From: Rhodococcus wratislaviensis
GTDB lineage: Bacteria; Actinomycetota; Actinomycetes; Mycobacteriales; Mycobacteriaceae
Length of the DNA: 64,000 nt
Direction: 5' to 3'
NCBI RefSeq assembly: GCF_900455735.1
Contig: NZ_UAUI01000011.1
Span: 434,001 to 498,000 of the forward strand
Part shown: piece after piece, positions 4,459 through 53,158 of the stretch
Numbering within the stretch: position 1 is the stretch's first letter
Layout of the letters: each line of letters opens with the position of its first letter
Program-made: the position numbers and the translations under genes
Notes under the pieces: generated by a model
The model's database searches: none
Told to the model about the DNA's origin: nothing
The model's input: the letters and a program-made list of their open reading frames with translations, nothing else

Positions 4459-4470
4459 CGATCAGCTGCC

Positions 4471-5393: not shown

Positions 5394-5493
5394 CGCTTTC
5401 GTTCGCCGTTGTCTCCGTCAGAAGTGTGGGGGTCGCGGCGGCGAAGCGACAGGTCCAGACGACGTCGAATCGTCGGTACCAGGAACGCACGGG

Positions 5494-5530: not shown

Positions 5531-5546
5531 GCTCGCGGGGAGCGGA

Positions 5547-7355: not shown

Positions 7356-7401
7356 GTGTGATCCTCCTTCAAGGGCGCGCCGGAACCGGCAGAGAATGTC
7401 A

Positions 7402-7429
7402 AAAATCGGAACGTTTCGTTCGTGATTTT
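7402..7429. promoter_or_regulatory. Imperfect palindrome in the xsc/IclR divergent promoter
   Basis: AAAATC at 7402-7407 and GATTTT at 7424-7429 flank GAACG-TTT-CGTTC, giving a 28-base nearly symmetrical element. It lies 47 bases before xsc. IclR proteins bind such AT-rich dyads, so it is a candidate operator for the divergent regulator. Confidence 0.5.
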
Positions 7430-7476
7430 GTGATCTGCAGTGACAGTAGGCCACGTCACACACTTCGTCAATGAAT

Positions 7477-7493
7477 GTTCCTAAAACTGGAAC
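7477..7493. promoter_or_regulatory. GTTCC-N7-GGAAC inverted repeat, candidate IclR operator
   Basis: Five-base perfect arms with a 7-base AT-rich spacer (TAAAACT). The 17-base size is typical for IclR-family operators. The site is 62 bases upstream of the IclR start and shares the GGAAC/GTTC half-sites with the palindrome at 7402-7429, which supports one protein binding both. Confidence 0.55.
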
Positions 7494-7554
7494 GGGATGT
7501 ATGATTTTTCGATACACGATGCGAATGCGTCGCCGTTTCGGCCAAGGAGGAACC

Positions 7555-8388: not shown

Positions 8389-8398
8389 AGGAGGGCGC

Positions 8399-9367
8399 AT
8401 GCCCGAAATGACCACTACGGCACCCAGCCACGTGCTGTCCGCACGCGAGCTGTTCGGACTCGACACCGACCTGACGGTGCGCGCCTTCCGCGAACCGGTC
8501 GACCACGTCCCCGACATCGACCCCGCGTACCGGTTCGATCACGCGGTGACGACGGCCCTGCTCGCCGGGTTCGGCCGTAACCGCCGGGTGATGGTGCAGG
8601 GTCTGCACGGCACCGGAAAGTCCACGCACATCGAGCAGGTCGCGGCGCGGCTCAACTGGCCGTGTGTGCGGGTCAACCTCGACGGACATCTCAGCCGACT
8701 GGACCTGATCGGTCGGGACGCGGTGGTCCTGCGAGACGGCAAGCAGGTCACCGAATTCCAGGAAGGGATCCTCCCCTGGGCGCTGCAGCGACCGGTCGCC
8801 CTCATCCTCGACGAGTACGACGCCGGCCGGCCCGATGTCATGTTCGTCATCCAGCGTCTCCTCGAGCGCGACGGGAAACTCACCCTGCTCGACCAGAACA
8901 GGGTTCTGACTCCCCATCCGGCCTTCCGGTTGTTCGCCACGGCCAACACCGTCGGTCTGGGCAATCTCAACGGCTTGTATCACGGCGTGCAGCGGCTCAA
9001 TCACGCGCAGATCGATCGCTGGAACATCGTCGCGACGCTCGATCACCTCCCCGCGGAACAGGAGATCGAGATCGTGTCCGCGCGGGTGCCGTCGCTGAGC
9101 CGGGAGCTCATCGGGTCGATGGTGGCCGTGGCCAACCTGACGCGCAGCGGGTTTCGGGTCGGTGACCTGTCGACGTTGATGTCGCCGCGCACGGTGATCA
9201 CCTGGGCCGAGAACATCGAGATCTTCCACGACCCCGCGCTGGCATTCCGGTTGTCGTTCGTCAACAAATGCGACGAGGCCGAGCGACCCGTGGTCGCCGA
9301 GTACTTCCAGCGATGCTTCGACTCGGAACTGGAGCGGTCGGCGATGCTCGCGACGAGCACGGCGTGA
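8399..9367 (+). CDS. CobS-like AAA+ ATPase (MoxR-type metal-insertion chaperone)
   Basis: 322 aa. Strongly resembles the CobS subunit of aerobic cobaltochelatase: GLHGTGKST Walker A at about 68-76, LILDEYD Walker B at about 135-141, [13 protein letters not shown] and [10 protein letters not shown] sensor region. CobS works as a ring with CobT, driving Co2+ insertion by CobN. No cobN or other corrin gene is next to it here; the neighbours are an IclR regulator, a VWA protein and a phosphonatase-like hydrolase. It may therefore be a dedicated MoxR/VWA maturation factor for another metalloenzyme. ATG 8399 follows GGAGGG. The family assignment is firm, the role is inference. Confidence 0.85.
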
Positions 9368-35965: not shown

Positions 35966-37372
35966 GTGCAAGAGCCAACGGCACGTCCGGTCGGCCCGTA
36001 CGCTTCGGGGCCGCCACCTGCAGCCCTGACCGTGCACTCCGCGAGCCTCGACCATTTCCGCGCCGCGGAGTTGTGGCGGGCGCTGGTCATCGGCGTGGTC
36101 GTCGTCGCCTACACACTGTTCGCGCTGATCACCTGGCCTGTCCGACGTCGTGGCCGCACCCTTGCGGACGCGGCGTCGGAGGGCCTGGTCAACGGTTTCG
36201 AGGTGCTGGGTCCGACGTTCGTCAAGGTCGGGCAGCTGATGGCGTCGTCTTCCGGCGTGTTCCCCGCCCCGCTGGCCAACGCGTGTCTGCGATGTCTCGA
36301 CGACGTGCCGCCGGTGCCCGCCGAGGAGGCCCGCCGGGTCATCGAAGCCGACCTGGGGCATCCCGTCGACGCACTGTTCGCGTCGTTCGACGACGTCCCC
36401 CTCGCCGCCGCCTCCGTCGCGCAGGTGCACGGCTGCGTTCTCCCCGACGGCAGGGAAGCCGTCATCAAGGTCCAACGCCCCGACATCTTCCGCCGCATGG
36501 TGGTGGACCTGCGCACCGCGTACTGGGGCGCACGGATCCTCGAGAAACTCTTCGAGTTCTTCCGCATCGCCAACGCCACCGCCATCATCCGCGACCTCCA
36601 CGCGGCGACGATGACCGAACTCAACAGCGCGGTCGAGGCCGACCGGCAGGCCCGGTTCAGGACGAACATCGGGGCGTTCGGCGACAACAAGGGCGTCACC
36701 ACCCCGGAGGTGTACTGGGACTACTGCGGTCCACACGTCATCTGCATGGAACGCATGTACGGGCTGCCACTCGACCGGTTCCCCGACCTCGTCCACATGG
36801 ACACCCGGATGCTGATCCGCCGCGGCGTCAAGGTGTGGATCGAGTCCGTCATCCTCCACGGCCCGTTCCACGGCGACGTGCACGCGGGGAACCTGTGGGT
36901 CCTCGACGACGGACGCATCGCGATGCTCGACTTCGGCATCGTCGGTGAGCTCCCCGAGTCGTGGCGGCAGATCCTGCGCGACATGTTCTACGCCACCCTG
37001 ATCGACGGCGACTTCTCCCGCATGGCCCGCGGAATCCGCAGCCTCGGCTATGCGACGGACAACGACGCCACCGACGACGAGATCGGCCTCCAGGTGGCCG
37101 CCGCCCTCGCGCCCCTGCTGGGCCGGGACCTCGGTGAGCTGCGGCTCAGCGAACTCATCATGGCCCTGATCGGCATCGGCAAGAAATGGGGCGTCGCCAG
37201 CCCCGAGGAACTCGTCCTGTTCGGGAAGCAGCTCGGCTACTTCGAGCGGTACGCCACCGAACTCGCACCCGGCTGGGTGATCGGGCAGGACCTGTTCCTG
37301 TTCCGCAACGTCTTCCCGGACGCCGTCGCCGCGAAGGCCCTCGAACTCGGGGTCGAGCTGCCCGACGAGTGA
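35966..37372 (+). CDS. ABC1/AarF/UbiB family atypical kinase
   Basis: 468 aa. One membrane segment at about 35-55. KxGQ motif in TFVKVGQLMASSSGVFP, AAASVAQVHG alanine-rich loop, lysine in AVIKVQRP, FHGDVHAGNLWVLDDG catalytic loop and IAMLDFGIVGE as the DFG equivalent. Family members support ubiquinone or other isoprenoid-lipid metabolism and are ATPase-like. GTG start with AGGTAGG upstream. Confidence 0.88.
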   Translation: MQEPTARPVGPYASGPPPAALTVHSASLDHFRAAELWRALVIGVVVVAYTLFALITWPVRRRGRTLADAASEGLVNGFEVLGPTFVKVGQLMASSSGVFPAPLANACLRCLDDVPPVPAEEARRVIEADLGHPVDALFASFDDVPLAAASVAQVHGCVLPDGREAVIKVQRPDIFRRMVVDLRTAYWGARILEKLFEFFRIANATAIIRDLHAATMTELNSAVEADRQARFRTNIGAFGDNKGVTTPEVYWDYCGPHVICMERMYGLPLDRFPDLVHMDTRMLIRRGVKVWIESVILHGPFHGDVHAGNLWVLDDGRIAMLDFGIVGELPESWRQILRDMFYATLIDGDFSRMARGIRSLGYATDNDATDDEIGLQVAAALAPLLGRDLGELRLSELIMALIGIGKKWGVASPEELVLFGKQLGYFERYATELAPGWVIGQDLFLFRNVFPDAVAAKALELGVELPDE

Positions 37373-37393: not shown

Positions 37394-38962
37394 CTATTGC
37401 CCGGTCAAAGAATCCAGCACTGACGCCCGGTGGAGGGGGTGGTCCGGGAGCCGGTCGGGTGTGAGGATCCAGTCGTTGCCCGTCCACGGGTCGGAGACGG
37501 TGAGGACCCCCGACGTCGGAACCTGTTGCGCGATGCGTTCGAGTACCGCGACGCCCGGATCCGAATCCGCGGCGGCGCCGTCGCCGACGATGATCAGCGA
37601 TGTACCGACCGCGGGGCCGTGATCGGCGAGGTGCACGATGCGCGCGGCGTCCTCGGCGCCGTACCCGTGTGGGAAGTCGCCCAGGATCACCAGCCGCGGC
37701 TCCGGCACGTTGTCGCGGATTCCGCTGCGGGCCGCCATTTCTGCGAGGTCGACGCTCTCGGACAGCGCGGTGAGGCGGGCGGTGATGTCGGAAGCCGAGG
37801 ACACGACCGGCGCAGCCAGCAGTGTGCCGAGGGGTTCGGTGAATGTGCGCAGCGAGCCGCTGAGGTCGACCACCTCCAACCGTTGTGCCGCCCCTGGAGA
37901 CGCGACCAGCATGCGCGCCGCCAGCGCCGCCACCACCGGTGCGGCTTCGGCCGGATCGCCGACGATCCACAGCGGACGCCCCACCGGGTAGTGGACACAG
38001 AACGGGACCCGCAGCTCACCGAGATCGGGTGCGGACAACTCGCCGAGCCTGAGCCCGTCCGTCACTGCGCTGCCGGTGACCGGCTTCGTCCAGGCGGCGG
38101 ATTCGAAGGTGGCCAGCGACCGCGGCAGCAGCGGATCGACGGCGCGGAGTTCGTCGGCCAGTTGAGAAGTCTCACCGTCGAATTTGCGCTGCGCCTCGGC
38201 GACGAGGGCATCGCATCGCTCCTGAGCCCTGGCCTGCGAGTGCACGACCGCCGGACTGTTGCGCGTGGACGGGGCGGCCACCGACTCGGACAGTTCGTCG
38301 TCCAGCCGCGCCTGCGCGTAGTCGCGCGAGGATCGGAACGAGGCCGCTGACCTGGCGGCGTCCTCGAAGATCATCCACGCCCTCTCGAACGAGTGGGCAG
38401 GGTCGAGCGGTATGCCCGCCGGACCGGGTATCGCCGGAATCTCCTCGACGACCGGGTGTGCGGGTTCGTCCACCTCGACGCCGTGCCTGGTGACGAGTTC
38501 GGCGAGGCCGCCGTCGTATCCCTGCCCGACGGCCCGCACCCTCCATTCGGTGCCGCGGCGGTAGATCTCGAGGCAGATCGCGGCCGCCTCGGAACCGACC
38601 AGCGGGACGTCGAAAACGACCAGGACACGGTCATTTTCGTCGGCGAGTGTGGCCGACAGACCCTCTCGGGCCAGCGTCGACGAACCGTTCGGGGACGCCG
38701 GATCGGCACTGACCACGCAGAGCACGCCCGCCGCAGCGGCGTCCACCTCGTCCAGCCGCAGCCGGACCGTTCCGTCCGCGTCGAGTTCCACCCCGGCGGC
38801 GCGCCGCTGGTTGTAGAACACGAAGTGGTCCGAGGACAGCGCGCGGAGATCGCCGTCCACGATCAACGCGGAGACGTCGATCGGCGTCGCATCGACCGCG
38901 CGGAAACGCAGTACGCGCGACGGCAGCGGGGCGTTCTGCCCCGGAACGAGGTGGACTGTCAC
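37394..38962 (-). CDS. TerD-domain protein fused to a degenerate FtsK-like ATPase region
   Basis: 522 aa. Residues 1-165 are a divergent TerD fold (FVFYNQRRAAGVEL, ICLEIYRRGTEWRVRAVGQGYDGGL). A helical linker (about 190-275) precedes a Rossmann/P-loop-like region resembling the FtsK/SpoIIIE end, but the position of Walker A reads GDPAEAAP (335-342) with no lysine; later LVILGDFPHG resembles Walker B. It may bind but not hydrolyse nucleotide. GTG start 8 bases after the preceding TerD gene, so part of the Ter operon. Confidence 0.78.
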   Translation of the reverse strand: MTVHLVPGQNAPLPSRVLRFRAVDATPIDVSALIVDGDLRALSSDHFVFYNQRRAAGVELDADGTVRLRLDEVDAAAAGVLCVVSADPASPNGSSTLAREGLSATLADENDRVLVVFDVPLVGSEAAAICLEIYRRGTEWRVRAVGQGYDGGLAELVTRHGVEVDEPAHPVVEEIPAIPGPAGIPLDPAHSFERAWMIFEDAARSAASFRSSRDYAQARLDDELSESVAAPSTRNSPAVVHSQARAQERCDALVAEAQRKFDGETSQLADELRAVDPLLPRSLATFESAAWTKPVTGSAVTDGLRLGELSAPDLGELRVPFCVHYPVGRPLWIVGDPAEAAPVVAALAARMLVASPGAAQRLEVVDLSGSLRTFTEPLGTLLAAPVVSSASDITARLTALSESVDLAEMAARSGIRDNVPEPRLVILGDFPHGYGAEDAARIVHLADHGPAVGTSLIIVGDGAAADSDPGVAVLERIAQQVPTSGVLTVSDPWTGNDWILTPDRLPDHPLHRASVLDSLTGQ

Positions 38963-38970
38963 CGCCGCCC

Positions 38971-40215
38971 CTAGACGCCGAGGAAGCGGCCGAGTTGAGG
39001 CGCGGCCTCACCCGCGTGCTTGGCCTGAATGCCCTCACCGATGGCCTGCAGCTTCCACTCGCCGCCGACCCGGTACACCTTGGCCATCACCATTCCGGTG
39101 AACGGCATCCCGCCCTGCAGCGTGAACCGGGCGAGTTCGGCCGACGACGTGGTGTCCACCAGGCGGCAGAAGGCGTTCTTCACCTGCTCGAACGTGTGCC
39201 CGCGGTACGACGTCACGATGAACACGATGGTCGAGATGTGCGGCGGAATGCGGGTGAGATCGACGAGGATCACCTCGTCGTCGCCGGCGCCCTCACCGGT
39301 GAGGTTGTCGCCCTGGTGCCGAATCGATCCGTCCTTCGACGCCAGCTGACCGTAGTAGGCGACGTCGACCATGTTGTTGTCCGCGAACAGGACCGCCGAC
39401 GCATCGAGGTCGACGTTGGCGGAACGGTTTCCGAACATGCCGCGCTTCTCGATCGGGTCCCAGCCGAGTCCCATCTGGATGTACGTCAGCGCAACGCCAC
39501 CGTCCTTGCGGAGCGTGACCTTCTGACCCTTGGACAGGCTGACCGGTCGCGCCTTGGTGAGACTGACCTCGGCCGGAGCAGCGGGCGTGGGAGGTGCCGC
39601 GGGAGCCGGGGGTGCGGCGGGCGCGACCGGCGGCGGGTAGGCAGCCTGCGGTGCCGGTGCCGGTGCGGGAGCGGGCGGCTGCTGGACGGGAGCGGCGGCG
39701 GGTGCGGGAGCGTCGTCGACGGACACGCCGTGATCGGTGACGAGAGCGGCGAACCCGCCGGCGTAGCCCTGCCCGACGGCCCGCACCTTCCAGGCGCCCT
39801 GGCGTCGGTACAGCTCGAGCGCGATGACGATCGACTCGGAGTTCAGTCCCTCGATCTTGTACTCGTACAGCGAGTTTCCGGCGCCGTCGGCGATGCGGGC
39901 GGTCGGCGGCGCGGAGCGGCCGAAGTTACTGGTGGCGTCGTCGAGCGTGATGACCGCGCGCACCTGGGCGATGTCGGCAGGCACCGCGCCGAGCGACACC
40001 TTCAGCGAGGCCGCCTGTCCGGTGGCTCCGGGGACGAGCTGTACCCCGGGACCGGTCGGCTGGTTGAAGAAGACGAAGTCGGCGTCCGAGCGGACCTTCC
40101 CCGAGTCGGTGACGAGCAGCGCGGACAGGTCGGCGGCGGCGGTCAGTTCGAGGGAGACGATGACGTCGTCGACGCTCAGCGGGCCGTTCTGACCCTTGGC
40201 TAGCGGAGTGGACAC
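38971..40215 (-). CDS. Two-domain TerD family stress protein
   Basis: 414 aa. First TerD domain at about 5-165 (SADFVFFNQPTG-like region, ELYRRQGAWKVRAVGQGYAGGF), then a proline/alanine linker at about 167-215, then a complete second TerD domain (VSLSKGQKVTLRK, YIQMGLGWDP, NVDLDASAVLF, GDNLTGEGAGDDEVI) with the acidic residues that bind Ca2+ in the family. Cytoplasmic or membrane-associated stress protein. GTG start. 62 bases separate it from the HAD gene upstream. Confidence 0.88.
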   Translation of the reverse strand: MSTPLAKGQNGPLSVDDVIVSLELTAAADLSALLVTDSGKVRSDADFVFFNQPTGPGVQLVPGATGQAASLKVSLGAVPADIAQVRAVITLDDATSNFGRSAPPTARIADGAGNSLYEYKIEGLNSESIVIALELYRRQGAWKVRAVGQGYAGGFAALVTDHGVSVDDAPAPAAAPVQQPPAPAPAPAPQAAYPPPVAPAAPPAPAAPPTPAAPAEVSLTKARPVSLSKGQKVTLRKDGGVALTYIQMGLGWDPIEKRGMFGNRSANVDLDASAVLFADNNMVDVAYYGQLASKDGSIRHQGDNLTGEGAGDDEVILVDLTRIPPHISTIVFIVTSYRGHTFEQVKNAFCRLVDTTSSAELARFTLQGGMPFTGMVMAKVYRVGGEWKLQAIGEGIQAKHAGEAAPQLGRFLGV

Positions 40216-40277
40216 TGCGGTGGTTCCTTCACTGTGGGAGCGTCGGGTTTGTCCCGTTTGGCCTGTTTGCCTACAAC

Positions 40278-41156
40278 CTACAAAAGAGCGCCGACGGCCG
40301 TCGTCCCCGCACCCCGCGCGACGCGGTCCACGAACCAGTGCAGGATCTCCTCACCAGCGGCGATACCGCTGCTACCGGTGACCGACAGGGTCGGGTGCTG
40401 CCAGTCGAGCGTTTCGAGTTCGCCGTGCCGGGGACGGATGGCGGCGTCGGCCGCACTGAGCATGTTGGCGTCGAGGGCCCCGTCCCCTGCCGCCAGCACG
40501 GGGGCTTCCGGCGCGAGCACTCCGTCGTCGACGAGCCTCGAACGGACCTCCGCGACCGCACGGCTCTTGCACACCGCGTCGGGCATCGTATAGATCTTGC
40601 GGCCCTGCCGGGACGCCCCCCATCCCCGGTCCACGCACCAGTCGTTCCACTCCTCCACGAAGCCCACCGGCATCGCGTCGAGGTCCACGACCAGGTAGGA
40701 GAACAGTTCGTCGGCCACCCGGGACGAGCGGACCCAGCTGTCGTCGATCCGGCGGCTCAGCTCGGCGCCGACCTCCACCAGCGAGGCTCCACCGTCGGCC
40801 ATCGCGATGTCGACACCCGACCGCCATCCGCTGTCGGGGACACCGTCGACGAGGATGTTCCCGCCGTTGGTCGTGATCGCGTACCGCCACGGCGCCCCCG
40901 GCAGGTCGATGCGCTGGAACTGCGCGACGGTGCGCGTGGTGGCGGGCACGACCACGGCGGACGCGGTGAGCTTCCGCAGCATCGCCTCGGCGGCCGACGT
41001 GACATAGGACAGCGGTTTGCCGTCGTACACCTCGACGCACAGCAGGTCCTCGTCGCCGGGCCGCTCGGCCACGTCGCTCTCGGTCACGGCGAGTTCCATG
41101 GCCCCGCGCGAATAGATCATGGTGCGGTCGAGGTCGGTCGCGATCAGCGCGGTCAT
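40278..41156 (-). CDS. HAD-family phosphatase of the Ter metabolite cluster
   Basis: 292 aa. Motif I ATDLDRTMIYSRG with the aspartate pair at 8 and 10, a mixed cap domain, and motif IV AAGDGALDANML. In Ter gene clusters such HAD enzymes are proposed to dephosphorylate a nucleoside-like intermediate. ATG 41156 overlaps the preceding PRTase stop (ATGA). Confidence 0.8.
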   Translation of the reverse strand: MTALIATDLDRTMIYSRGAMELAVTESDVAERPGDEDLLCVEVYDGKPLSYVTSAAEAMLRKLTASAVVVPATTRTVAQFQRIDLPGAPWRYAITTNGGNILVDGVPDSGWRSGVDIAMADGGASLVEVGAELSRRIDDSWVRSSRVADELFSYLVVDLDAMPVGFVEEWNDWCVDRGWGASRQGRKIYTMPDAVCKSRAVAEVRSRLVDDGVLAPEAPVLAAGDGALDANMLSAADAAIRPRHGELETLDWQHPTLSVTGSSGIAAGEEILHWFVDRVARGAGTTAVGALL

Positions 41157-42262
41157 GTCACATCCTTGATCAGGCCCATGCACGAATACGCCAGGGCGGG
41201 AACCTCTTCGACGGGGACCGAACGCGCGGCGGCGAGTAGCCGGATGTGCGCGTGCTCCGGCGCCTCGAGGTCGCGGACCAGCACCCGCCACGGCACCCGG
41301 CGCAGCAGCACCCGGGTGGTCTCGCCGACACCGGGCTTCACGAAGTTCACACTCGAGATGCCGTACTGCTCCCGGACCTCCTCGACGGACTTCCAGCCGT
41401 CCCAGGTGGGGGTGCGGTCCGACCGCAGCAAGTCCTGGACGTCGCCGGGAACGTGCTCGCGCACATCCCCGAAGGACGCGCTGACGGAATCGAGGAGGTG
41501 ATTGGACACGTCCTCGCCCGCCAGGTGGGCGTAGAACTTGGCGCCGTGGAAGTCGCCGGGTCCGATCAGCGTGTCGTTGAGGACGGTCCGCGACACCAGA
41601 CCCGACACGGTGGAGTTCAGGCACGCGGAGGCGATCAGGAAGTCGTCGCGGGTGCCGAACGTGCGGACGCAGTGCCCCGGATCGGCGAGGACGGCGAGGT
41701 CGTCGTCGAACTGGGCGCCACCGGCGTCGCGGTACTCGACGAGTGCCTGCGACAACTCGCGGGCGATGGCACCCTTGCCCGTCCAGCCGTCGACGAACAC
41801 CACGTTCGCCGGGTCGTGATGCTGCGCGAGGTAGTCGAGCGCGACGGCGTCGATCCCCCGGTCGCGGACGATGGAGACGGCGTAGTGCGGCAGCGTCAAC
41901 CCGTGGACGTCGCGCGCCCAGCGGCGCATGAGCACACCCACCGGGGTTCCCGCCCGCGCCAGCGACACGAGTGTGACGTCGCGGCCCCGCTCGGCCAGCA
42001 CGAGGTCGGTGACCGTCCCCACGGCGCGTGCCAGCCGGATGGAGCTGTCCTGCAGAACCTTCTCGAACAGCTCGCGATACTCCGCGTCGGGCTGGTACTC
42101 GATGGGCAGCGTCTCCGCGTAGTGGGCCTCGCCCGACTGGATGCGGTGCTCCCGCTCGGCGACATCGGCTTCGAGGTCCACGTGCGACAGGTCTGTGAGC
42201 AGCCAGCCCACCTCGTCGGCCGTGTACGAACCGAACGCCGGGCCGGTCAGCGGCGCCGTCAC
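41153..42262 (-). CDS. Phosphoribosyltransferase, StiP/PRTase_1 family
   Basis: 369 aa. Signatures: FGSYTADEVGWLLTDL at the N terminus, HYAETLPIEYQP, VSLARAGTPVGVLMRRW, and the PRPP-binding loop VVFVDGWTGKGAI at about 152-164. The GSYTADEVGWLL and SGEAHYAE stretches are particular to the StiP-like PRTase of Ter/tellurite clusters. The GTG at 42262 is chosen for its GTGA overlap with the upstream gene. Predicted to transfer a ribose-phosphate group to or from an unknown base. Confidence 0.82.
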   Translation of the reverse strand: MTAPLTGPAFGSYTADEVGWLLTDLSHVDLEADVAEREHRIQSGEAHYAETLPIEYQPDAEYRELFEKVLQDSSIRLARAVGTVTDLVLAERGRDVTLVSLARAGTPVGVLMRRWARDVHGLTLPHYAVSIVRDRGIDAVALDYLAQHHDPANVVFVDGWTGKGAIARELSQALVEYRDAGGAQFDDDLAVLADPGHCVRTFGTRDDFLIASACLNSTVSGLVSRTVLNDTLIGPGDFHGAKFYAHLAGEDVSNHLLDSVSASFGDVREHVPGDVQDLLRSDRTPTWDGWKSVEEVREQYGISSVNFVKPGVGETTRVLLRRVPWRVLVRDLEAPEHAHIRLLAAARSVPVEEVPALAYSCMGLIKDVT

Positions 42263-43575
42263 GTCGGCGCTCCCGGCCGGGTCGTCTTCGGCGGCGCCGC
42301 CGTCGCGGCTCGGGCGGCGCGCAGCGACAGCGGGTCGAAGCCGGACACGACGGCCAGGAGCACATCCGTTCCCGACGCGGTGAGCACGTCGAGGAGTCCG
42401 CCTGCTGCCGTGAGCCGCTCGGTGTCGGCCGCGGCGTCGATCACCGCGACCACGACGGCGTCCTCGTCCGGCCACTGTGCGTTGTAGACGAAACGCGGCT
42501 GCTGTTCACCGTTCTCGGGTGCCGTGAACCGGAATCCGCGGCGCAGCGGGTATCCCGGCCGGTCGAGCACGTAGGCGGGTGACCGCGTCGTCGTCTGGAA
42601 TCGAACCCGGAAGCCGGACGTGGCGAGCGCGTCCGCGAGTCGCAGCGGGAGGTACATCAGCTCTTCGTGTCCGACGACGATCACCGGGCGCTGCGGGTCG
42701 AGTCGGTCGAGGAGCACCGCGGCCGCCGACGTGACGGCCGCATCGAACTCCTCGGTGTCTTCCCGCAGGAACCCGTGCCGACCACCTTCCGGAACCGTTG
42801 CGGGCCAGGGTATGTCGGCGCGCTCGACGGTCCCGGTCCGCTCACCGACGGGGTTGAGCACCGGTTCGGGAAGGGCACCGACCGAGTCGATCAGTCCGCC
42901 GGGAAGCTCGGTGCGCCCCACCGCCAGACTCACGCTGTCGATCTGCACACCCAGTTCGGCGGCCGCGGCGTCGACGGTGTCCCGGTGACCCTGCTCGCGC
43001 ATGTCGACGAGCGAGGCCACGACGTAACGGCTGCGCGGATTCTGCCGGTGGAGCGCGCGGATCGCGTCGACCGCAGTGGCGCCGGTGGAGATCTCGTCGT
43101 CCACGAGGACGAGTGGACGATCGCCCGTGAACAACTCGACGGACGTCGGCTGCAACTGGTGACTGGTCGCGTGCGAGTGCCCCTCCTCGAACCCGGCGGA
43201 CGTTCCGATCTCGGGGACGTCCCTCCGTGTGGAGTGCAGGTAACACCGGGCGCGCAGCCGGGCCGCGACACAATGCCCCAGACCTGTTGCGGTCTCGGCG
43301 AATCCGAGCACGACGGGATCCGCATCCGGCCCGAGAACGTCGGCGACCAGATCGCCGAGGCGGTCGCCCGCACCGATCACGGCACCCGGGTCGGTGGGCA
43401 CGTGCTTGCCGAGGACCGTCGAGACGAGCAGGTGGGCGCGGCGCGGGTTGCGACGCAGGCCGGGCTCGACGAGTTCGGGGATGGTCAACCCCGTGTCCGA
43501 ACCCACGTGGGCGAGCGTCAGCCCCAGGTGTTCCGTGGCCCAGGGCACCGCGCGCACGGCGGTGGGTGAGCTCAT
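42259..43575 (-). CDS. Phosphoribosyltransferase with TRSP domain
   Basis: 438 aa. Residues about 20-220 are a type I PRTase with PRPP loop LVLVDDEISTGATAVDAI and an upstream VVLGFAETATGLGH. Residues about 250-400 form the TRSP domain (RHGFLRED, VIVVGHEELMYLPLRLADAL, the RSPAYVLDRPGYPLRRG stretch). This two-domain form is found in Ter-associated clusters. ATG 43575 overlaps the CitE-like stop (ATGA), and its own stop overlaps the next PRTase. Confidence 0.82.
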   Translation of the reverse strand: MSSPTAVRAVPWATEHLGLTLAHVGSDTGLTIPELVEPGLRRNPRRAHLLVSTVLGKHVPTDPGAVIGAGDRLGDLVADVLGPDADPVVLGFAETATGLGHCVAARLRARCYLHSTRRDVPEIGTSAGFEEGHSHATSHQLQPTSVELFTGDRPLVLVDDEISTGATAVDAIRALHRQNPRSRYVVASLVDMREQGHRDTVDAAAAELGVQIDSVSLAVGRTELPGGLIDSVGALPEPVLNPVGERTGTVERADIPWPATVPEGGRHGFLREDTEEFDAAVTSAAAVLLDRLDPQRPVIVVGHEELMYLPLRLADALATSGFRVRFQTTTRSPAYVLDRPGYPLRRGFRFTAPENGEQQPRFVYNAQWPDEDAVVVAVIDAAADTERLTAAGGLLDVLTASGTDVLLAVVSGFDPLSLRAARAATAAPPKTTRPGAPT

Positions 43576-44798
43576 CGGACGGCCAGTGCGGTCAGAAGAT
43601 CCACGAACGTGATTCCCTCGTTTGTCACGCCGAACACCTTCGCCCGGACGAGTGTCTTCTCGGCCCAGCTGCGGTGCGGGCGCATTTCGTTCATCTTGTT
43701 GCGATAGCCCGACGCCTGGACGCCGCCGACGCTCTCGGCGCCGAGAATGTCGAGCGCATCGTGGTACTCCTCGTGCGTCACCGCGGATAGGGCGTGTACG
43801 GCCGCGACGTGCGTCGGGTGGATGACCGTCTTCCCCTGGATGCCGTTGGCACGGTCGAGGGCGATCTCCCGCAGCAGGCCGTCCAGATCCCGGCTGACCA
43901 GCTGCTGACGGAACCGCACCTCGTTGTGTTCCTCGAACGGCGTGGCGCGCAGGGTCGGCCGGAACATCCGCTCGTGGTCGGCGAAGTACTCCCACACCGG
44001 ACCGGTGATGACGTGTCCGGTGTCGTCGGCCCGGCCCAGGAAGTTGACGATGCCGGCAATCGCGTCCGCGACCACCCGCACGTCGTAGATCGTCAGGTCG
44101 CGGTCGCGGCGGATGCCGAACGTGGCACACATGTCGGTGGCGCCGATGCGCACGGCGAGGATCCGCTCGCGGTGTTCGACGAGCAGTTCGCCGATCTTCG
44201 CGAGTTCGTCGTCGCGGGTCTCCCGGTGCACCAGTGCCGGCGATTCGAGCACCGGCATCGCGTACAGGTGTTTGCCGAGCCGCTCCGACGCTGCGGCCAG
44301 CTCGTCGAGGAAGGCACGTCCCGTCGCACTACCGAACTTCGGAATCACGAATCCGGACAACACCTCGACGCCGGTGGTCAGCAGGTCGGCGATTCGCCGA
44401 AGGTCCTCGGCGGCCCGTACCCGGACGAACAACTGCATCCGCGCACCACCGTGGACCGCGAGTCGATCGAGCGCGTCGACGGCGTTGAGCAGCGCCGCTT
44501 CCACCTGGTCGTCGGCCACCGCGTCCTCGAGGTCCAGGACCATCGAGCACACACCGTCACCGGACCGGCGGAGGATGGTGTCCGCGAGGTCGGACCTCGT
44601 CGCAGGCACGTACAGCGTCGCGCCCAGCGCCACGGCCAGCACCGTTCGATCCTCGTCGGGCCCGAGAGCCTGCGGAGCGTGCAGGAACAGCCGGCCGTGC
44701 GTCTCGGGATCGAGGTGGTGGAAGTGCCGCACGTGCCGCACCGCCGCCGTCTCACCTGGCGGCACCGCCGCCGACATGATCTCTTCGCTAATGCTCAT
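43572..44798 (-). CDS. CitE/HpcH-like C-C lyase of the Ter cluster
   Basis: 408 aa TIM-barrel enzyme of the HpcH/HpaI aldolase-citrate lyase beta family. LYVPATRSDLADTILRR, the metal-binding VLDLEDAVADDQ, FVIPKFGSATG and KTVIHPTHVAAVHAL are present. Ter-cluster versions are longer than CitE (about 290) by an N-terminal extension and a C-terminal SGYRNKMNEMRPHRSWAEK segment. GGGGG upstream of ATG 44798. First of four genes linked by 4-base overlaps; 12 bases downstream of the coiled-coil gene. Confidence 0.85.
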   Translation of the reverse strand: MSISEEIMSAAVPPGETAAVRHVRHFHHLDPETHGRLFLHAPQALGPDEDRTVLAVALGATLYVPATRSDLADTILRRSGDGVCSMVLDLEDAVADDQVEAALLNAVDALDRLAVHGGARMQLFVRVRAAEDLRRIADLLTTGVEVLSGFVIPKFGSATGRAFLDELAAASERLGKHLYAMPVLESPALVHRETRDDELAKIGELLVEHRERILAVRIGATDMCATFGIRRDRDLTIYDVRVVADAIAGIVNFLGRADDTGHVITGPVWEYFADHERMFRPTLRATPFEEHNEVRFRQQLVSRDLDGLLREIALDRANGIQGKTVIHPTHVAAVHALSAVTHEEYHDALDILGAESVGGVQASGYRNKMNEMRPHRSWAEKTLVRAKVFGVTNEGITFVDLLTALAVR

Positions 44799-44810
44799 CG
44801 TCCCCCCGTG

Positions 44811-46007
44811 TCATCGCTGTCCTGTGTGTCCTCTCATCTTCTGAACCACCTCGGCAATGAAGGCCGACACGGCATCGAGCTGGGCGACGTACGCCCAGTA
44901 GTCGGGATGCCTCCCGGTCAGTGTCCCTGCAATCCGGTCGATCCGCTCGAGCTGAGCGTCGAGGACCGACCCCCATTCCCGCACGAGACCACGATTGACA
45001 GCCAACATCTGGGCGTCGCGGAGGCGAAATCTGATCTCGTTCTCCTTGGCCCGTGGGTTCTCGCGGACCTCCCGCAGCAACAGCAGGCGATCGGTGACGC
45101 CGTCGACGTTCGCCTCGGCGTCGACCAGATGGGTCCGCGCGGCGGCGGTCAGATCCAGCGCCCCCTCCGGATTTCCCGCGGTCAGAGCGTTCTGCGCCTG
45201 CTGCAGATCGGTTTGCGCCTGCTCGATGTGCCTGCGGCTCTCGCGGTCGTTGTGGACGAGATCCGCCGAACTGGCCGCGTTGAACTCGCGCAGCAGGGCG
45301 GAGTAGGCGGGCGCGAGCCGTTCCGCCCGCGTCTGCACCGCGGCGATCCTCGTCGTCACCGACGACACGGCGTGAGCGGCGTCCAGTTCCTTGGACGGGG
45401 CCGCGGCCAGCGCCTTCTCGAGCGCCGCCGACTCCTCCCGCACACGCGCTGCCGCTTCGCGGACCGGGTTGGCTCCTCGGGCGCCCTGCAGCGCCACGAC
45501 CGCGGCGTCGAGTGCCGCTCCCCGGTTGCGCACCGACGGGTAGCCGGCGTACGCGGCGCCCTCGGTCTGCACCCGCTGCTGCGCCGCGGAGGCGACCTGA
45601 AGCGCCTGCTGGGCGAGCTGGGGCACGGCCGCCAGCATCGCGGTCGACTCCTCGAGATGGCCCCGATGTGTGCGATAGAACTCGTCGAGGGACTGCGTCG
45701 CCGCCACCAACTGCCGCGTCACCTGCTCGTACGCGGCGGCCGCCGCGGGTGACTGCACGTTCTCGAACTGGTCTTCCGCCGCCAGATACGCCGTCGCGGC
45801 CTGGTAGCACCCGTCGCGAACCGGTTCCCAGGCCCGCCGAATTCCGCGTTCCGGAGTCAGCTGGTCCGAGGCGTCCACAGCCGCGGCGGCGATGCTCTGC
45901 CGGTTGTCCATATCGAGAAACGCTGCGACCATCGTGTCGTGGGCGCGACGAGCCGAGTCGTCGCCCCGGGCTCTTCCTCGGAAGCGTCCCGCCCATCCGC
46001 TCGTCAC
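44811..46007 (-). CDS. Coiled-coil/helical protein of the Ter cluster
   Basis: 398 aa, almost entirely helical, rich in Ala, Gln, Glu and Arg; heptad-like stretches at about 60-340. Short opening motif GWAGRFRGRARGDD then FLDMDNRQ. No enzymatic motif. Homologous proteins accompany actinobacterial ter genes; possibly a scaffold like TelA. GTG 46007 is inferred as a leaderless start since TACGAT sits 7 bases upstream. It precedes the lyase gene by 12 bases and is divergent from a TerD gene. Confidence 0.65.
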   Translation of the reverse strand: MTSGWAGRFRGRARGDDSARRAHDTMVAAFLDMDNRQSIAAAAVDASDQLTPERGIRRAWEPVRDGCYQAATAYLAAEDQFENVQSPAAAAAYEQVTRQLVAATQSLDEFYRTHRGHLEESTAMLAAVPQLAQQALQVASAAQQRVQTEGAAYAGYPSVRNRGAALDAAVVALQGARGANPVREAAARVREESAALEKALAAAPSKELDAAHAVSSVTTRIAAVQTRAERLAPAYSALLREFNAASSADLVHNDRESRRHIEQAQTDLQQAQNALTAGNPEGALDLTAAARTHLVDAEANVDGVTDRLLLLREVRENPRAKENEIRFRLRDAQMLAVNRGLVREWGSVLDAQLERIDRIAGTLTGRHPDYWAYVAQLDAVSAFIAEVVQKMRGHTGQR

Positions 46008-46014
46008 GTCCTGA

Positions 46015-46020
46015 ATCGTA
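46015..46020 (-). promoter_or_regulatory. -10 box of the coiled-coil/Ter enzyme operon
   Basis: Minus strand TACGAT, 7 bases before GTG 46007. Consistent with a leaderless transcript for the long operon. Confidence 0.4.
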
Positions 46021-46190
46021 CTGGTCGGGCCGACAACACCGAGTGGTCCGGAATTGCCTGTGCACAAACCTGTGGACAGTTCGCGGGATGGGACAAGTCG
46101 GACAAATTCATTATCGTGGTGTTGCACGACGAACCCGGAACTTCGACAGCTGTCGAGGGTCCACCCACCTCCTCTCGAAAGGACCCCTGA

Positions 46191-46766
46191 ATGGGCGTCA
46201 GCTTGACCAAGGGCGGCAATGTTTCTCTCACGAAGGAGGCGCCGAACCTGACCGCGGTGGCTGTCGGACTCGGATGGGATGCCCGCTCGACCACCGGCAC
46301 CGACTTCGACCTCGACGCCAGCGCCATCGGTGCGGGTGCCGACAAGAAGGTCGTGTCGGACCAGCACTTCGTGTTCTTCAACAACCTGCGTTCCCCTGAC
46401 GGCTCGATCGAGCACATCGGCGACAACACCACCGGTGCGGGCGAGGGCGACGACGAGGTGATCAACGTCAACCTGGCGGCGGTCCCCGCGAACATCGAGA
46501 GCATCCTGTTCCCCGTCTCGATCTACGATGCGGAGACGCGTTCGCAGTCGTTCGGTCAGGTGCGCAACGCCTACATCCGCGTCGTCGACCAGGCCAACGG
46601 CAACGAGCTCGCCCGCTACGACCTGTCCGAGGATGCGTCGACCGAGACCGCTATGGTCTTCGGCGAGCTGTACCGCAACGGTGCGGAGTGGAAGTTCCGC
46701 GCCATCGGCCAGGGCTACGCGTCCGGGCTGGCCGGTATCGCCCGGGACTACGGCGTCAACGTCTGA
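46191..46766 (+). CDS. TerD/TerE-type tellurium-resistance stress protein
   Basis: 191 aa, the canonical single-domain size. Starts MGVSLTKGGNVSLTKEAP; GLGWDARSTTGTDFDLDASA, FFNNLRSPDGSIEHIGDNTTG, GEGDDEVINVNL, and ELYRNGAEWKFRAIGQGYASGL are textbook TerD. The Asp/Glu loops bind Ca2+. AAGGA precedes ATG 46191. Own promoter in the 183-base gap from the divergent operon. A strong terminator follows. Confidence 0.95.
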   Translation: MGVSLTKGGNVSLTKEAPNLTAVAVGLGWDARSTTGTDFDLDASAIGAGADKKVVSDQHFVFFNNLRSPDGSIEHIGDNTTGAGEGDDEVINVNLAAVPANIESILFPVSIYDAETRSQSFGQVRNAYIRVVDQANGNELARYDLSEDASTETAMVFGELYRNGAEWKFRAIGQGYASGLAGIARDYGVNV

Positions 46767-46785
46767 CAGTCGTTTCGTTCTCCAG

Positions 46786-46828
46786 CCGGGGGAGGGTTTC
46801 ACGGCCCTGACGTGAAACCCTCCCCCGG
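46786..46828 (+). terminator. Strong hairpin after terD-like gene
   Basis: 18-bp perfect arms at 46786-46803 and 46811-46828 with a 7-base loop (GCCCTGA), 20 bases past the stop. Confidence 0.85.
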
Positions 46829-46884
46829 TGTTCGTCCACCTGCAGTAGCCACCCTGCATGCCCACTAGAGAAAGGCCACGCTTC

Positions 46885-48027
46885 GTGGTTCTGCGAATAT
46901 TCGGTCTCTCCTTCGCCGTGACGGTGATCTCCCTCATCATCGCGGCGATCTACGGAGGCCCCCAGGCCGTCCTCCTCGTGGTGATCCTGTCGATCCTCGA
47001 GATCTCGCTGTCCTTCGACAACGCCGTCATCAACGCCACCGTGCTGCGCCGCATGAGCGAGTTCTGGCAGAAGATCTTCCTCACCGTCGGCATCGTCATC
47101 GCGGTGTTCGGCATGCGCCTGGTCTTCCCCCTCGTCATCGTGTGGCTCGCGTCCGGCCTCGGCCCCGTCGCCGCCCTCGACCTGGCCCTGAACCCGCCTG
47201 CCGACGGCGCCGCGTACTTCCCCGACGGCAGCGCCAGCTACGAAACCCTGCTCACCGACGCGCACCCGCAGATCGCGGCGTTCGGTGGCATGTTCCTGCT
47301 GATGCTGTTCCTCGGCTTCATCCTGGAAGAGCGCGAGATCACCTGGCTGTCCTGGCTGGAGAAGCCCCTCGCCCGCGCCGGCAAGCTCGACCAGCTGGCC
47401 GTCATCATCGCCGGCGCCCTGCTGCTGATCACCGCCGCGTACATCGCCCCCGAGGACACGGTCTCCACGGTGATGATCGCCGGCGTCCTCGGCATGGTCA
47501 CCTACATCGCCGTCAACGGTCTCGGTGAGCTGTTCAACACACCCGAGGAAGACGAAGGCGGCGAACCGGTCGCAGGGTCCACGGGCGGACCGACCGAGCT
47601 GGCCAAAGCCACCGGTAAGGCCGGGTTCTTCCTGTTCCTCTACCTCGAGGTCCTCGACGCGTCGTTCTCCTTCGACGGTGTGATCGGCGCGTTCGCGATC
47701 ACGTCCGACCCGATCATCATCGCCCTCGGCCTCGGCTTCGTCGGCGCGATGTTCGTCCGTTCCATCACGGTGTTCCTCGTCCGCAAGGGCACCCTGTCGG
47801 ACTACGTGTACCTCGAGCACGGCGCCCACTGGGCCATCGGCGCACTGGCCGTGATCCTGCTGGTGTCCATCGGCTACCACGTCAACGAGAACGTCACCGG
47901 ACTCGTCGGCGTCGCCCTCATCGGTGCCGCCTTCATCTCCAGCATCGTCCGCAACCGCAAGGCCGTCGCGGCGGCCGGCAAAGCGGAAGACGACGTGGAC
48001 GAGCAGAACCCGGTGTCCGTCGGCTAG
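46885..48027 (+). CDS. TerC-like/DUF475 integral membrane protein
   Basis: 380 aa with about nine membrane segments. Two acidic membrane motifs, LEISLSFDNAVINATVL and LEVLDASFSFDGVIGAF, carry the Asp/Asn pairs of the TerC/Alx type and are probably a metal (Mn2+ or Ca2+) site. GTG 46885 has AGAAAGG 10 bases upstream; an in-frame ATG at 46858 gives a 9-residue longer form but has no ribosome site. TerC and TerD form the membrane/cytoplasm core of Ter systems. Confidence 0.88.
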   Translation: MVLRIFGLSFAVTVISLIIAAIYGGPQAVLLVVILSILEISLSFDNAVINATVLRRMSEFWQKIFLTVGIVIAVFGMRLVFPLVIVWLASGLGPVAALDLALNPPADGAAYFPDGSASYETLLTDAHPQIAAFGGMFLLMLFLGFILEEREITWLSWLEKPLARAGKLDQLAVIIAGALLLITAAYIAPEDTVSTVMIAGVLGMVTYIAVNGLGELFNTPEEDEGGEPVAGSTGGPTELAKATGKAGFFLFLYLEVLDASFSFDGVIGAFAITSDPIIIALGLGFVGAMFVRSITVFLVRKGTLSDYVYLEHGAHWAIGALAVILLVSIGYHVNENVTGLVGVALIGAAFISSIVRNRKAVAAAGKAEDDVDEQNPVSVG

Positions 48028-48048
48028 GTTCTGCCTGTACTCACATCC

Positions 48049-48087
48049 AGCGGCAGTGCTCGTGACTCGGTCACGAGCACTGCCGCT
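48049..48087 (+). terminator. Perfect 18-bp hairpin after TerC-like gene
   Basis: Arms 48049-48066 and 48070-48087 exactly complementary, 3-base loop TCG. Separates the TerC-like gene from the AIM24 operon. Confidence 0.85.
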
Positions 48088-48107
48088 CGACACTGGAAAG
48101 GGCACCC

Positions 48108-48731
48108 ATGGGGCGGCTGCTCGAGAAGTCCACGAAGGTGGTGGAGGCGCAACTCGCCGGAACCACCATCCGGGCGATACAGGGTTCGATGATCGCCTAT
48201 GAGGGCAACGTCAACTTCAAGTCGGCGGGTTTCGGCGGCGGTGACGGTGTGCTCGCCGGCATGAAGCGGCGTGCCACCGGCGAGGCGCTGTCGTTGATGG
48301 AATGCTCCGGTCACGGTGTCGTGTACCTCGCGGTGGGCGGTCAGTACGTCTCCGTCGTCGACCTGGCGAACGAGACCCTGCAGGTGGAGTCGCAGCAGCT
48401 GCTCGCCTTGAGCGGCAACCTGAACACCAACGTCACGTTCACCGGACTGCGCGGCGGGGTCGGCGGTCAGGGCCTGTTCACCACGACCGTCTCCGGCCAG
48501 GGGCAGGTGGCACTGCTGTCGGCGGGCGGGCCACTCATTCACCTCGAGGTGTCGCCGCAGTACCCGCTGGTGGTCGACCCCGACGCATTCGTCTCGGCGC
48601 GCGGGCAGGTCACGCAGTCGTTCGTGACCGACGTGTCGTGGCGTAACGCCGTCGGCCAGGGCAACGGCGAGGCCTTCTCCCTCAAATGGGACGGTCACGG
48701 CGTCGTCTCCATTCAACCGGCAGAGCGGTGA
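48108..48731 (+). CDS. AIM24 family protein 1
   Basis: 207 aa, beta-rich AIM24 fold. VEAQLAGTTIRAIQGSMIAYEGNV, GQGLFTTTVSGQGQVALLSAGG and PLVVDPDAFVSARGQVTQS are typical. AIM24 proteins are often linked to TerD and to membrane-associated stress functions, but the activity is unknown. ATG 48108 follows GGAAAGG. Overlaps the next gene by GTGA. Confidence 0.85.
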   Translation: MGRLLEKSTKVVEAQLAGTTIRAIQGSMIAYEGNVNFKSAGFGGGDGVLAGMKRRATGEALSLMECSGHGVVYLAVGGQYVSVVDLANETLQVESQQLLALSGNLNTNVTFTGLRGGVGGQGLFTTTVSGQGQVALLSAGGPLIHLEVSPQYPLVVDPDAFVSARGQVTQSFVTDVSWRNAVGQGNGEAFSLKWDGHGVVSIQPAER

Positions 48732-49435
48732 GCCCCATGGTCTTCTCGAAAGTGAACTCGAAGGTCGTCAAGGTCGACGTCGGCGCCGCCGGCGGCGTGG
48801 TGGCGCGCACGGGTGCGATGCTGTTCTACACAGGCCAGGTCCAGTTCTCGCCGCATCAGGTGCCGGGTTCCCAGTCGATGGCGGGCATGGGTGGATTCAC
48901 CCGGATGGCCGGACGCATGATGCAGGGCGAGCACGAACGCACGATGCTTGCGCAGGGGCAGGGCGAGGTGCACTACGGTCACGCCGGACTCGAGGTGCAC
49001 GTCGTCGACATGTCGCAGGGCGGCGCGCTGTGCGTCGAGGCGTCCCGGCTGCTCGCGCACAATGCGGGACTGCAGAGTTCGGTGATCTCCGTGACCAGTC
49101 AGGGCGCTGGCGGCGGACGCGGCATGCTCGGCGCCCTGCGCGGCGCCGCTGCAGGCGCCCTCTCCGGTACCGGAATGTTCACGACGCAGCTGTCCGGGTA
49201 CGGGTCGGCGGTCCTCCTCGCGCACGGCGGCTTCATCGAACTGCCTGTGGGCGGCCCGAATCCGGTGTTCGTCGACCCCGACGCGTTCGTCGGCACGTAC
49301 GGGAGCGTCCAGGTGGAACTGAAATCCGCCGTCGGCTGGCGTGAGGCCATGGGCCGCGGTGTCGGGGAAGCGATGCAATTGCAGTGCACGGGTCAGGGCA
49401 TCGTCTACGTTCAGGCTTCGGAGGAGAAACTGTGA
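48728..49435 (+). CDS. AIM24 family protein 2
   Basis: 235 aa. ARTGAMLFYTGQVQFSP, a methionine-rich insert (MAGMGGFTRMAGRMMQGEHE), GTGMFTTQLSGYGSAVLLAHGG and PVFVDPDAFVGTYGSVQ. The Met/Gly insert is not in the first copy. GTG 48728 is inferred from the 4-base overlap; ATG 48737 is possible. Confidence 0.83.
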   Translation: MSPMVFSKVNSKVVKVDVGAAGGVVARTGAMLFYTGQVQFSPHQVPGSQSMAGMGGFTRMAGRMMQGEHERTMLAQGQGEVHYGHAGLEVHVVDMSQGGALCVEASRLLAHNAGLQSSVISVTSQGAGGGRGMLGALRGAAAGALSGTGMFTTQLSGYGSAVLLAHGGFIELPVGGPNPVFVDPDAFVGTYGSVQVELKSAVGWREAMGRGVGEAMQLQCTGQGIVYVQASEEKL

Positions 49436-50187
49436 CCGCCATCCACAATCCGTCGACTCTCGGCGCCAGCGACAACATTCCCGACAACAGCTACGCGTTC
49501 TGCATCGACCTCACCGCGCCCTGGTTCATCCGCAAGGGTGCGATGATCGCCTACTACGGGCAGATGCAGTTTCAGGCACTGACCCACGGATTGCACGGCG
49601 CCGCACTGCACATGGTCGCCAACCAATTCTCGGCGCCGCTGTACATGGGCGACTACGCGGTGGCCGAAGGATTCGGGAAACTGATCATCGGCGACCGCGG
49701 TTACGACATCAACTCGTACGACCTCGACGACGGCAACCTCACCATCCGGGCGTCGAATCTCCTTGCGTTCGAACCGGGTCTGGCCCTGAACCAGTCCATC
49801 GTCCCCGGCTTCCTGACACTCATCGGGACGGGCAAGTTCCTGGCGTCGTCCAACGGCCCGGTGATGTTCGCCGAGCCGCCGCTGCGGATCGACCCCGAGG
49901 CGCTCGTCGGGTGGGCCGACTGCCCGTCCCCGAGTCACCATTACGACCAGGGGTGGATCAGCAACTTCCTCGCGGCAGGCGCCCACATGATGGGAATCAA
50001 CTCCGGGGAGGAACGGCAGTTCGACTTCACCGGCGCCGGAACGGTTCTGATCCAGTCGAGCGAGAAGGTCCTCAGCGACACGCATGTCGTGCGCAGCATC
50101 GAGGGTCAGATCCACGGCATCACCCCCAGCGGTCTGCAACGGCTCAACGGAGTGATCGCCGCCAAGCTGGCGGAGCAGCCTCGCTGA
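49432..50187 (+). CDS. AIM24 family protein 3
   Basis: 251 aa. IRKGAMIAYYGQMQFQAL, GDRGYDINSYDLDDGNLTIR, GTGKFLASSNGPVMFAE and a C-terminal GINSGEERQFDFTGAGTVLI. GTG 49432 is preceded by GAGGAG and overlaps the second copy by GTGA. The three consecutive copies are divergent, so they probably build a hetero-oligomer. Confidence 0.85.
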   Translation: MTAIHNPSTLGASDNIPDNSYAFCIDLTAPWFIRKGAMIAYYGQMQFQALTHGLHGAALHMVANQFSAPLYMGDYAVAEGFGKLIIGDRGYDINSYDLDDGNLTIRASNLLAFEPGLALNQSIVPGFLTLIGTGKFLASSNGPVMFAEPPLRIDPEALVGWADCPSPSHHYDQGWISNFLAAGAHMMGINSGEERQFDFTGAGTVLIQSSEKVLSDTHVVRSIEGQIHGITPSGLQRLNGVIAAKLAEQPR

Positions 50188-51817: not shown

Positions 51818-53158
51818 GTGAACGACTCATATCTCGTCATCGGCGAAACCACCGTGGCCCGACGGGTCTGTGCGTCCCTCCGCGAAAGGGACTTTCACGT
51901 ACGTCATCTCGTCGCCCCCGACGACGACGAACTCCGCCTGGCAATGGCGGACGAACCTTGCGGGATGGCCGTACTGGTGCGCGACGACGTCGTCGCCCTG
52001 CGTTACGCGCTGGCCGCCGCGCACATCTCGGCGTCGATCCCGTTGGTGGTGACGATCTTCGACCGCACGGTCGCGGACCAGCTGTCCCAGCTGCTTCCGC
52101 AGTGCGAGGTGACGTCACCGGCAGATCTCGCCGCACCCACGCTCGCCGGTCCGTGCCTGGAACCGGAACTCGTCGCGGCCCGGCACGCGGGCGAGCACAT
52201 GCTGACTGTCCGGATGATCGACGGACACCCCGAGGGCGCGCACGTCGACCTGCCCCGGCGGAACTGGTGGCGCACCGCGGCGACCGGCGCGACCGGACTG
52301 TTGCGGTCGCACGACATCGGCACGCGCATCCTGCTCGGTGGGCTCGCCGGACTTCTCGCGGTCCTGTTCGCCGACTGGTTGTGGCTGATGCTCGGTCAGC
52401 ACGTGGCACCGCTCGACGCGTTCAACGAGGCGGTGCGGGTGGTGACCACTGTGGGCCCGGGAACCGACACCCACGGCAGCCCCGCCTACGCGGTGTTCGC
52501 CTCGGTGGCGATGCTGCTCACCGTGGTGTTCACGGCCATGTTCACCGCCGGGATCATCGAGCGCCTGCTCGGCCCCCGGCTGGTCGGCCTGGTGGGCAGC
52601 CGGGTTCTGCCCCGCTCCGGCCACGTCATCGTGGTGGGCCTCGGCCAGGTCGGGCTCCGGCTCTGCCGGGAGCTACAGGCTCTCGGTGTCGCGGTGGTGG
52701 GCGTCGAACGCGACCCCCACGCCAAGAACTTGCGGCTCGTGCGGGCGATGAACATCCCGACCGTCGTCGGGCACGGCGGCGACCGTGAACTCCTCGAGCG
52801 ACTGGGCGTCGGCCGCGCCCTGGCGCTGGCCGCCGTCGGATCCGACGACCTGGACAACATCGCGGTGTCGGTGGCCGCGCAGGCCCTGTCCCCCGGGCTG
52901 CGGCTGGTCCTGCGGGCCGGCGAGCAGGAGGCGATCGCCGAGACGCGGTCGCTGCTGCGGCTCGGAATCATCCGCGACGTCACCAGCCTGAGCGCCACGT
53001 ACGTGGTGGCCAAGCTGATCGGCCTGCAACCGCAGGGGGTCGTGGCGGACGGCAGCCACCTCTACCTGGAGGTACCGACGGCGGAATCGTCCGAGCCCGT
53101 GTTCACCGAGCTGCCCGTGTCGCCGCGGATGAGCTGCCGGCACCTCGTCACCACGTAG
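51818..53158 (+). CDS. Two-RCK ion channel-like protein with altered filter
   Basis: 446 aa. An N-terminal Rossmann/RCK-like domain (YLVIGETTVARRVCASLR) is followed by two membrane helices (about 168-192 and 225-247) around a pore loop, then a second RCK domain with GLGQVGLRLCREL at 274-286 and VVGVERDP. The filter position reads TTVGPG (210-215) where K+ channels have T-V-G-Y-G, so selectivity or conduction may differ. GTG start with GGAAGG upstream. Convergent with RidA, 4-base gap. Confidence 0.78.
   Translation: MNDSYLVIGETTVARRVCASLRERDFHVRHLVAPDDDELRLAMADEPCGMAVLVRDDVVALRYALAAAHISASIPLVVTIFDRTVADQLSQLLPQCEVTSPADLAAPTLAGPCLEPELVAARHAGEHMLTVRMIDGHPEGAHVDLPRRNWWRTAATGATGLLRSHDIGTRILLGGLAGLLAVLFADWLWLMLGQHVAPLDAFNEAVRVVTTVGPGTDTHGSPAYAVFASVAMLLTVVFTAMFTAGIIERLLGPRLVGLVGSRVLPRSGHVIVVGLGQVGLRLCRELQALGVAVVGVERDPHAKNLRLVRAMNIPTVVGHGGDRELLERLGVGRALALAAVGSDDLDNIAVSVAAQALSPGLRLVLRAGEQEAIAETRSLLRLGIIRDVTSLSATYVVAKLIGLQPQGVVADGSHLYLEVPTAESSEPVFTELPVSPRMSCRHLVTT

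Follow-up and report, generated by a model that had tools for sequence, protein, structure and literature searches.

A Ter-dependent biosynthetic module was reportedly proposed in 2012 by Anantharaman, Iyer and Aravind, and the product of the Ter biosynthetic genes has been a puzzle since that proposal, although these genes are carried on many clinical plasmids. In enterobacterial loci, the biosynthetic enzymes adjoin and diverge from terZABCDE. Ter systems have been described as phosphoribosyltransferases (PRTases) and HAD enzymes that make a nucleoside or nucleotide signal, which TerB and TerD sense and to which TerC responds (PMC7824862). In E. coli MG1655, terZ-F alone is sufficient for tellurite resistance (PMC8115787); thus, this phenotype does not depend on the biosynthetic genes, for which some other stress is a better guess. 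The outline of the system is known, and the copy described here is one of very many.

This copy lies in a window of 64,000 nucleotides (the whole stretch of DNA that was analysed) from the 7.78-Mb genome of the actinomycete Rhodococcus wratislaviensis; judged by StiP sequence, its nearest relative is that of Rhodococcus marinonascens (89%). Four enzyme genes on the minus strand (44798-40278) overlap by ATGA, GTGA and ATGA, and encode a CitE/HpcH-like C-C bond lyase (43572-44798; PF15617, 8e-122), a PRTase_2-TRSP protein (42259-43575; Pfam matches of 7e-64 and 1e-35, respectively), a StiP-PELOTA protein with a GTG start (41153-42262; StiP 1e-106), and a HAD phosphatase (40278-41156). They are preceded on the same strand by a coiled-coil gene (44811-45932), the stop of which is 12 bases ahead of the lyase start, and followed, 62 bases downstream of the HAD gene, by a TerD-TerD gene (38971-40215) and then by a gene for a TerD protein with a C-terminal extension (37394-38962). 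On the plus strand, divergent from the operon, are genes for a TerD-family protein (46191-46766), a TerC-family membrane protein of the DUF475 type (46858-48027; DUF475 1e-131, TerC 6e-15) and three AIM24 proteins (48108-48731, 48734-49435 and 49384-50187; 3.6e-32, 2.3e-27 and 2.8e-12), of which the second and third have uncertain starts and overlap each other. The first-pass annotation had reported the same genes and coordinates, including the four-base overlaps, the coiled-coil gene ahead of the enzymes, the TerD genes on both sides, the TerC-like protein and the AIM24 trio, and all of these were confirmed, with families assigned by Pfam and the HAD protein by profile. Its filing of the locus under the Ter-dependent biosynthetic module is likewise supported, for every gene that defines the core of that module is present: a TIM-barrel C-C bond lyase, a PRTase_2-TRSP fusion, a PRTase-like StiP protein with a PELOTA domain, a HAD enzyme with intact catalytic residues in the same operon, and linked TerD and TerC-family genes.

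In the lyase alignment, E185 and D222 are invariant, and by comparison with CitE enzymes they are probably the metal-binding residues. In actinomycetes, 30 residues (274-303) are inserted into the lyase directly after a conserved GPVWEYF stretch. That this insert is a consequence of ATP-grasp loss was considered and rejected, because Azospirillum and Burkholderia have no ATP-grasp and yet have a short lyase. The PRTase_2 domain carries a full PRPP loop, LVLVDDEISTGAT, and is fused to a TRSP domain with the motif TTTRSP. Its structural model (pLDDT 86) matches adenine phosphoribosyltransferases (E-values to 1.3e-7, probability 1.00), and on the modelled fold and the PRPP loop together the domain is classed as an APRT-like type I PRTase; among the matches listed, none was to the TRSP part by itself.

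The first-pass annotation was mistaken in finding no PELOTA-domain protein in this copy, for PELOTA_1 (PF15608, E=1.4e-35) occupies residues 287-366 of the StiP protein. Over the same stretch, a StiP profile independently matches L7Ae ribosomal proteins with the RNA-binding loop in register (KPGVGETTR aligned with KKGTNETTK of L7Ae). Residues E314 and R317, the L7Ae equivalents of which are Glu and Lys, are invariant in 33 sequences, and the Asn of the L7Ae loop is replaced by Gly, Ala or Ser. These features bear on the alternative that the system is directed at RNA, with StiP-PELOTA swapping a base or ribosyl group into structured RNA or attaching one to it, the other enzymes supplying a modified base, and a modified RNA as the product. 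The two invariant residues agree with such a role, as does the fusion of PRTase and RNA-binding parts in loci of all phyla examined, phage included, but we consider it unlikely given the substituted Asn, the lack of any RNA family near the operon in an Rfam search, and the presence of a HAD phosphatase, which is more natural with a small phosphorylated product.

Within the StiP domain, for which no solved structure was matched by sequence (the PELOTA part alone matching L7Ae), the stretches SLxRAGxPxG and VFVDGWTGKG are conserved in bacteria and phage. We take the latter to be PRPP-loop-like, two residues shorter than the textbook motif. The StiP model (pLDDT 79) has weak fold matches to PRTases (E of about 0.01), those of high probability (0.9-0.99) being to PyrR and hypoxanthine-guanine PRTases, and on this model StiP resembles a PRTase whose PRPP loop is shortened. 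Its database name (Pfam, NCBI) would make it a cysteine protease and the operon a pathway of regulated proteolysis, and that name is the sole point in favour of a reading that we find barely credible. The best-conserved cysteine column is occupied in 21 of 33 StiP proteins and none is conserved in more, so the name is unsupported; furthermore, the conserved positions are those of the PRTase-like loops, and no protease is among the best 50 fold matches.

The HAD protein has no Pfam match, although it bears the motifs DLDRT, K197 and GD...D with intact catalytic residues, and its profile matches a solved HAD phosphatase (PDB 6D3V/6CJ0) at 3e-50. The depositors named this structure trehalose phosphatase, and its chains are almost identical to the HAD protein of a Pseudomonas plasmid Ter operon, two facts that lend some weight to a different account, in which the HAD enzyme would act on a sugar phosphate, in the manner of a trehalose 6-phosphate phosphatase, and the product of the cluster would be a sugar-based protectant instead of a nucleoside-like compound. 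That account is quite improbable, however: the HAD protein of this locus is only 26% identical to the crystallised protein, two separate Trehalose_PPase genes are found elsewhere in this genome, two PRTase-type proteins would be senseless for trehalose, and P. aeruginosa, according to a review, is without the OtsA-OtsB route (PMC11046441). The name given by the depositors may stem from activity in vitro.

The coiled-coil gene is probably the first gene of the operon, and its protein gave coiled-coil noise only in the Pfam search. In the R. marinonascens locus (6722-8721), TerD and the lyase are separated by a gap of about 220 bases without a coiled-coil gene; thus, the gene is either dispensable or has moved in the closest relative. 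No clear shared operator emerged from an alignment of regions upstream of TerD. In the window TerB had no match and TerF matched TerD-like regions only, so that the classical terZABCDEF set, with TerB and TerF beside TerC and TerD, is not found here. The approximately 240 C-terminal residues of the extended TerD protein (37394-38125) belong to no Pfam family, recur in Nocardia-type clusters and, by eye, recall a degenerate FtsK-like ATPase. Elsewhere in the same genome, an RNase_T-type exonuclease, a BRCT domain and TerD are combined in one protein (5213-7165 of the fetched stretch). The cluster is flanked by genes for an ABC1-family kinase (35966-37372), which among related loci is nearby in R. 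marinonascens only, and for a TrkA-type potassium channel protein (51818-53158). PADLOC models identified no known anti-phage defence protein and gave a weak coiled-coil match only.

The distribution of the operon was examined in 151 genomes of the family. TRSP is present in 75 of them; these 75, and no others, also have a strong lyase match (E no higher than 1e-95), and the two start positions are always 1175-2027 bases apart. Chance is excluded, because the two genes co-occur in 75 of 75 genomes and are always adjacent. Where the fetched stretch extends far enough, a further 80 + 11 loci repeat the enzyme order of this copy, with TerD and DUF475 genes alongside, and with the same proviso the order lyase, PRTase_2-TRSP, StiP-PELOTA, HAD is kept in actinomycete loci of at least nine genera. 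Enzyme alignments show the catalytic motifs to be intact across phyla, and the smallest shared set consists of PRTase_2-TRSP, HAD and StiP (phage ME3 being without a lyase in the stretch seen); the non-actinomycete sample comprises plasmids and phages only, about 15 loci, so that statements on other phyla are drawn from a small sample. The suggestion that the pathway here may be a variant holds as to form, but the variant is not peculiar to this copy, being the rule in actinomycetes: with the lyase first, HAD last, a 30-residue lyase insert and no ATP-grasp, the actinomycete form is a clade-wide variant.

A StiP homologue is found in more than 2,500 plasmid records; many plasmid proteins are named 'cysteine protease StiP' (PF11202, NCBI), with no cysteine conserved across the family sample. 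Several of the loci have features of their own. On a Deinococcus radiophilus plasmid, the biosynthetic operon contains an AIM24 gene and adjoins a gene (3474-5051) for a fusion of TerD with an HNH nuclease. In a Pseudomonas kurunegalensis plasmid (3840-10761), a gene for a trypsin-like peptidase separates ATP-grasp from PRTase_2, and the lyase is followed by another HAD gene, different from the first. In Acinetobacter phage ME3 (6174-9065), PRTase_2, HAD and StiP are followed at a short distance by a 671-residue protein without a Pfam family. A human gut contig filed as phage (MT836648) encodes StiP, PRTase_2 and, on the opposite strand, an actinomycete-like lyase (GPVWEYY); no HAD was detected on it.

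The first-pass annotation had also noted that this copy has no ATP-grasp gene, and this was borne out: an operon-specific profile found no operon-type ATP-grasp in the cluster, and searches of the whole genome with the operon enzymes of Klebsiella and Pseudomonas likewise gave none, an absence that rests on these two proteins, the six-sequence profile and PF15632, which a very divergent ligase could escape. The accompanying idea that the pathway may rely on distant genes therefore fails for the operon-type enzyme. PF15632 (ATPgrasp_Ter) was dropped as a marker because hardly any genome lacks an ATP-grasp enzyme that it matches (of 14 controls, 12 exceeded the cut-off), and the operon-specific proteins and profile replaced it; its matches in this genome are all below the cut-off and consistent with ordinary ATP-grasp enzymes. 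Strong PF15632 matches in Streptomyces were also set aside: megabases separate them from the operon, and their scores of about 155-175 bits fall short of the 490-566 or so that operon enzymes reach. Two such matches were examined, and no tested Ter protein was found within 5 kb of them. The operon-type profile detected 0 ATP-grasp genes in 92 actinomycete loci and 0 in the 64-kb window, and one in each Klebsiella, E. coli, Pantoea, Pseudomonas and Deinococcus locus, although all of these loci except Pantoea contributed to the profile. The ligase that marks the form found in enterobacteria, Pseudomonas and Deinococcus is thus missing here, as it is near Azospirillum, Burkholderia, rhizobial and phage ME3 loci. 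Relatives of the Pseudomonas enzyme (28-30%) occur in 4 of the 151 family genomes, either on a different contig from the operon or at a distance of about 1 to 2.6 Mb; at 1e-5, 71 of the 75 operon-bearing genomes lack it and the other four have it unlinked.

ATP-dependent amidoligation might nevertheless occur in trans, through a housekeeping or unrelated ligase, for there are many ATP-grasp proteins in any genome, and the operon-type enzyme heads the biosynthetic run in enterobacterial, Pseudomonas and Deinococcus loci. We think this rather unlikely, in view of the lack of any relative of the operon enzyme in this genome, its rarity and lack of linkage in the family, and its absence near the proteobacterial and phage loci named above. 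Since ATP-grasp is present in the enterobacterial, Pseudomonas and Deinococcus loci examined and missing from actinomycete, some other proteobacterial and jumbo phage loci, it is optional, which narrows the chemistry.

The reading that we prefer, and to which we give an even chance, is that the ATP-grasp-free Ter module of actinomycetes makes a PRPP-dependent, nucleoside-like metabolite that is read by Ter proteins, without amidoligation. The CitE-like lyase would make or trim a base-like precursor through C-C cleavage, and the APRT-like PRTase_2 domain would join this precursor to ribose 5-phosphate from PRPP. StiP-PELOTA, as a second PRTase-like enzyme, may perform a second ribosyl or exchange step while tethered to RNA or RNP via its L7Ae-like domain, after which the HAD enzyme would strip phosphate to leave a dephosphorylated nucleoside-like molecule. 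TerD and AIM24 proteins may then read this molecule at the TerC-family membrane protein, in a stress response. The direct basis of this pathway is gene content, gene overlaps, conserved catalytic motifs, strict co-occurrence, the lack of an operon-type ATP-grasp and the APRT-like fold of PRTase_2 in its predicted model; from these we infer the reaction order, substrate, product, sensor and timing. The nucleoside-like product is a prediction here and, as far as we found, in every other copy. Counted against the pathway are the shortened loop and weak PRTase fold match of StiP, the name under which the HAD relative was deposited, and the dispensability of the biosynthetic genes for tellurite resistance in E. 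coli MG1655. A bolder and more doubtful proposal is that actinomycetes make a simpler Ter-family nucleoside-like signal, with no amide-linked group, by means of four enzymes and a re-shaped lyase active site; if it is true, the signals of Ter systems form a family of related compounds, not a single one. The four-enzyme, ligase-free operon is the smallest lyase-bearing bacterial form among the loci seen and is common in Streptomyces and Rhodococcus, which are easily handled in the laboratory; it is thus well suited to a search for the molecule.

Compared with the Ter-dependent biosynthetic module as proposed, this locus has the lyase, PRTase_2-TRSP, StiP-PELOTA, HAD and the linkage to TerD and TerC-family genes, but differs in having no ATP-grasp, a longer lyase, a DUF475-type TerC and a coiled-coil gene at its head; the lyase gene is first and the HAD gene last, whereas the order in the module is ATPgrasp-PRTase-HAD-StiP-lyase. 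The enterobacterial ter locus of IncHI-type and virulence plasmids (pAPEC-O1-R, K. pneumoniae p16HN-12_Vir) has the same enzyme families but, unlike this locus, also has ATP-grasp, TerB, TerF, TerW, TerY and kinase/phosphatase genes. The Ter genes of the Acinetobacter jumbo phage ME3 similarly include PRTase_2, HAD and StiP in one run, but with neither lyase nor ATP-grasp in the stretch examined, whereas the lyase is present here. The AIM24 trio of this locus was not found in the Streptomyces loci examined. With the Ter clusters of Streptomyces, Nocardia and Gordonia, this locus shares the four-gene order, TerD, DUF475 and the lack of ATP-grasp, and most of those clusters also have a homologue of the coiled-coil gene, which Streptomyces places apart.
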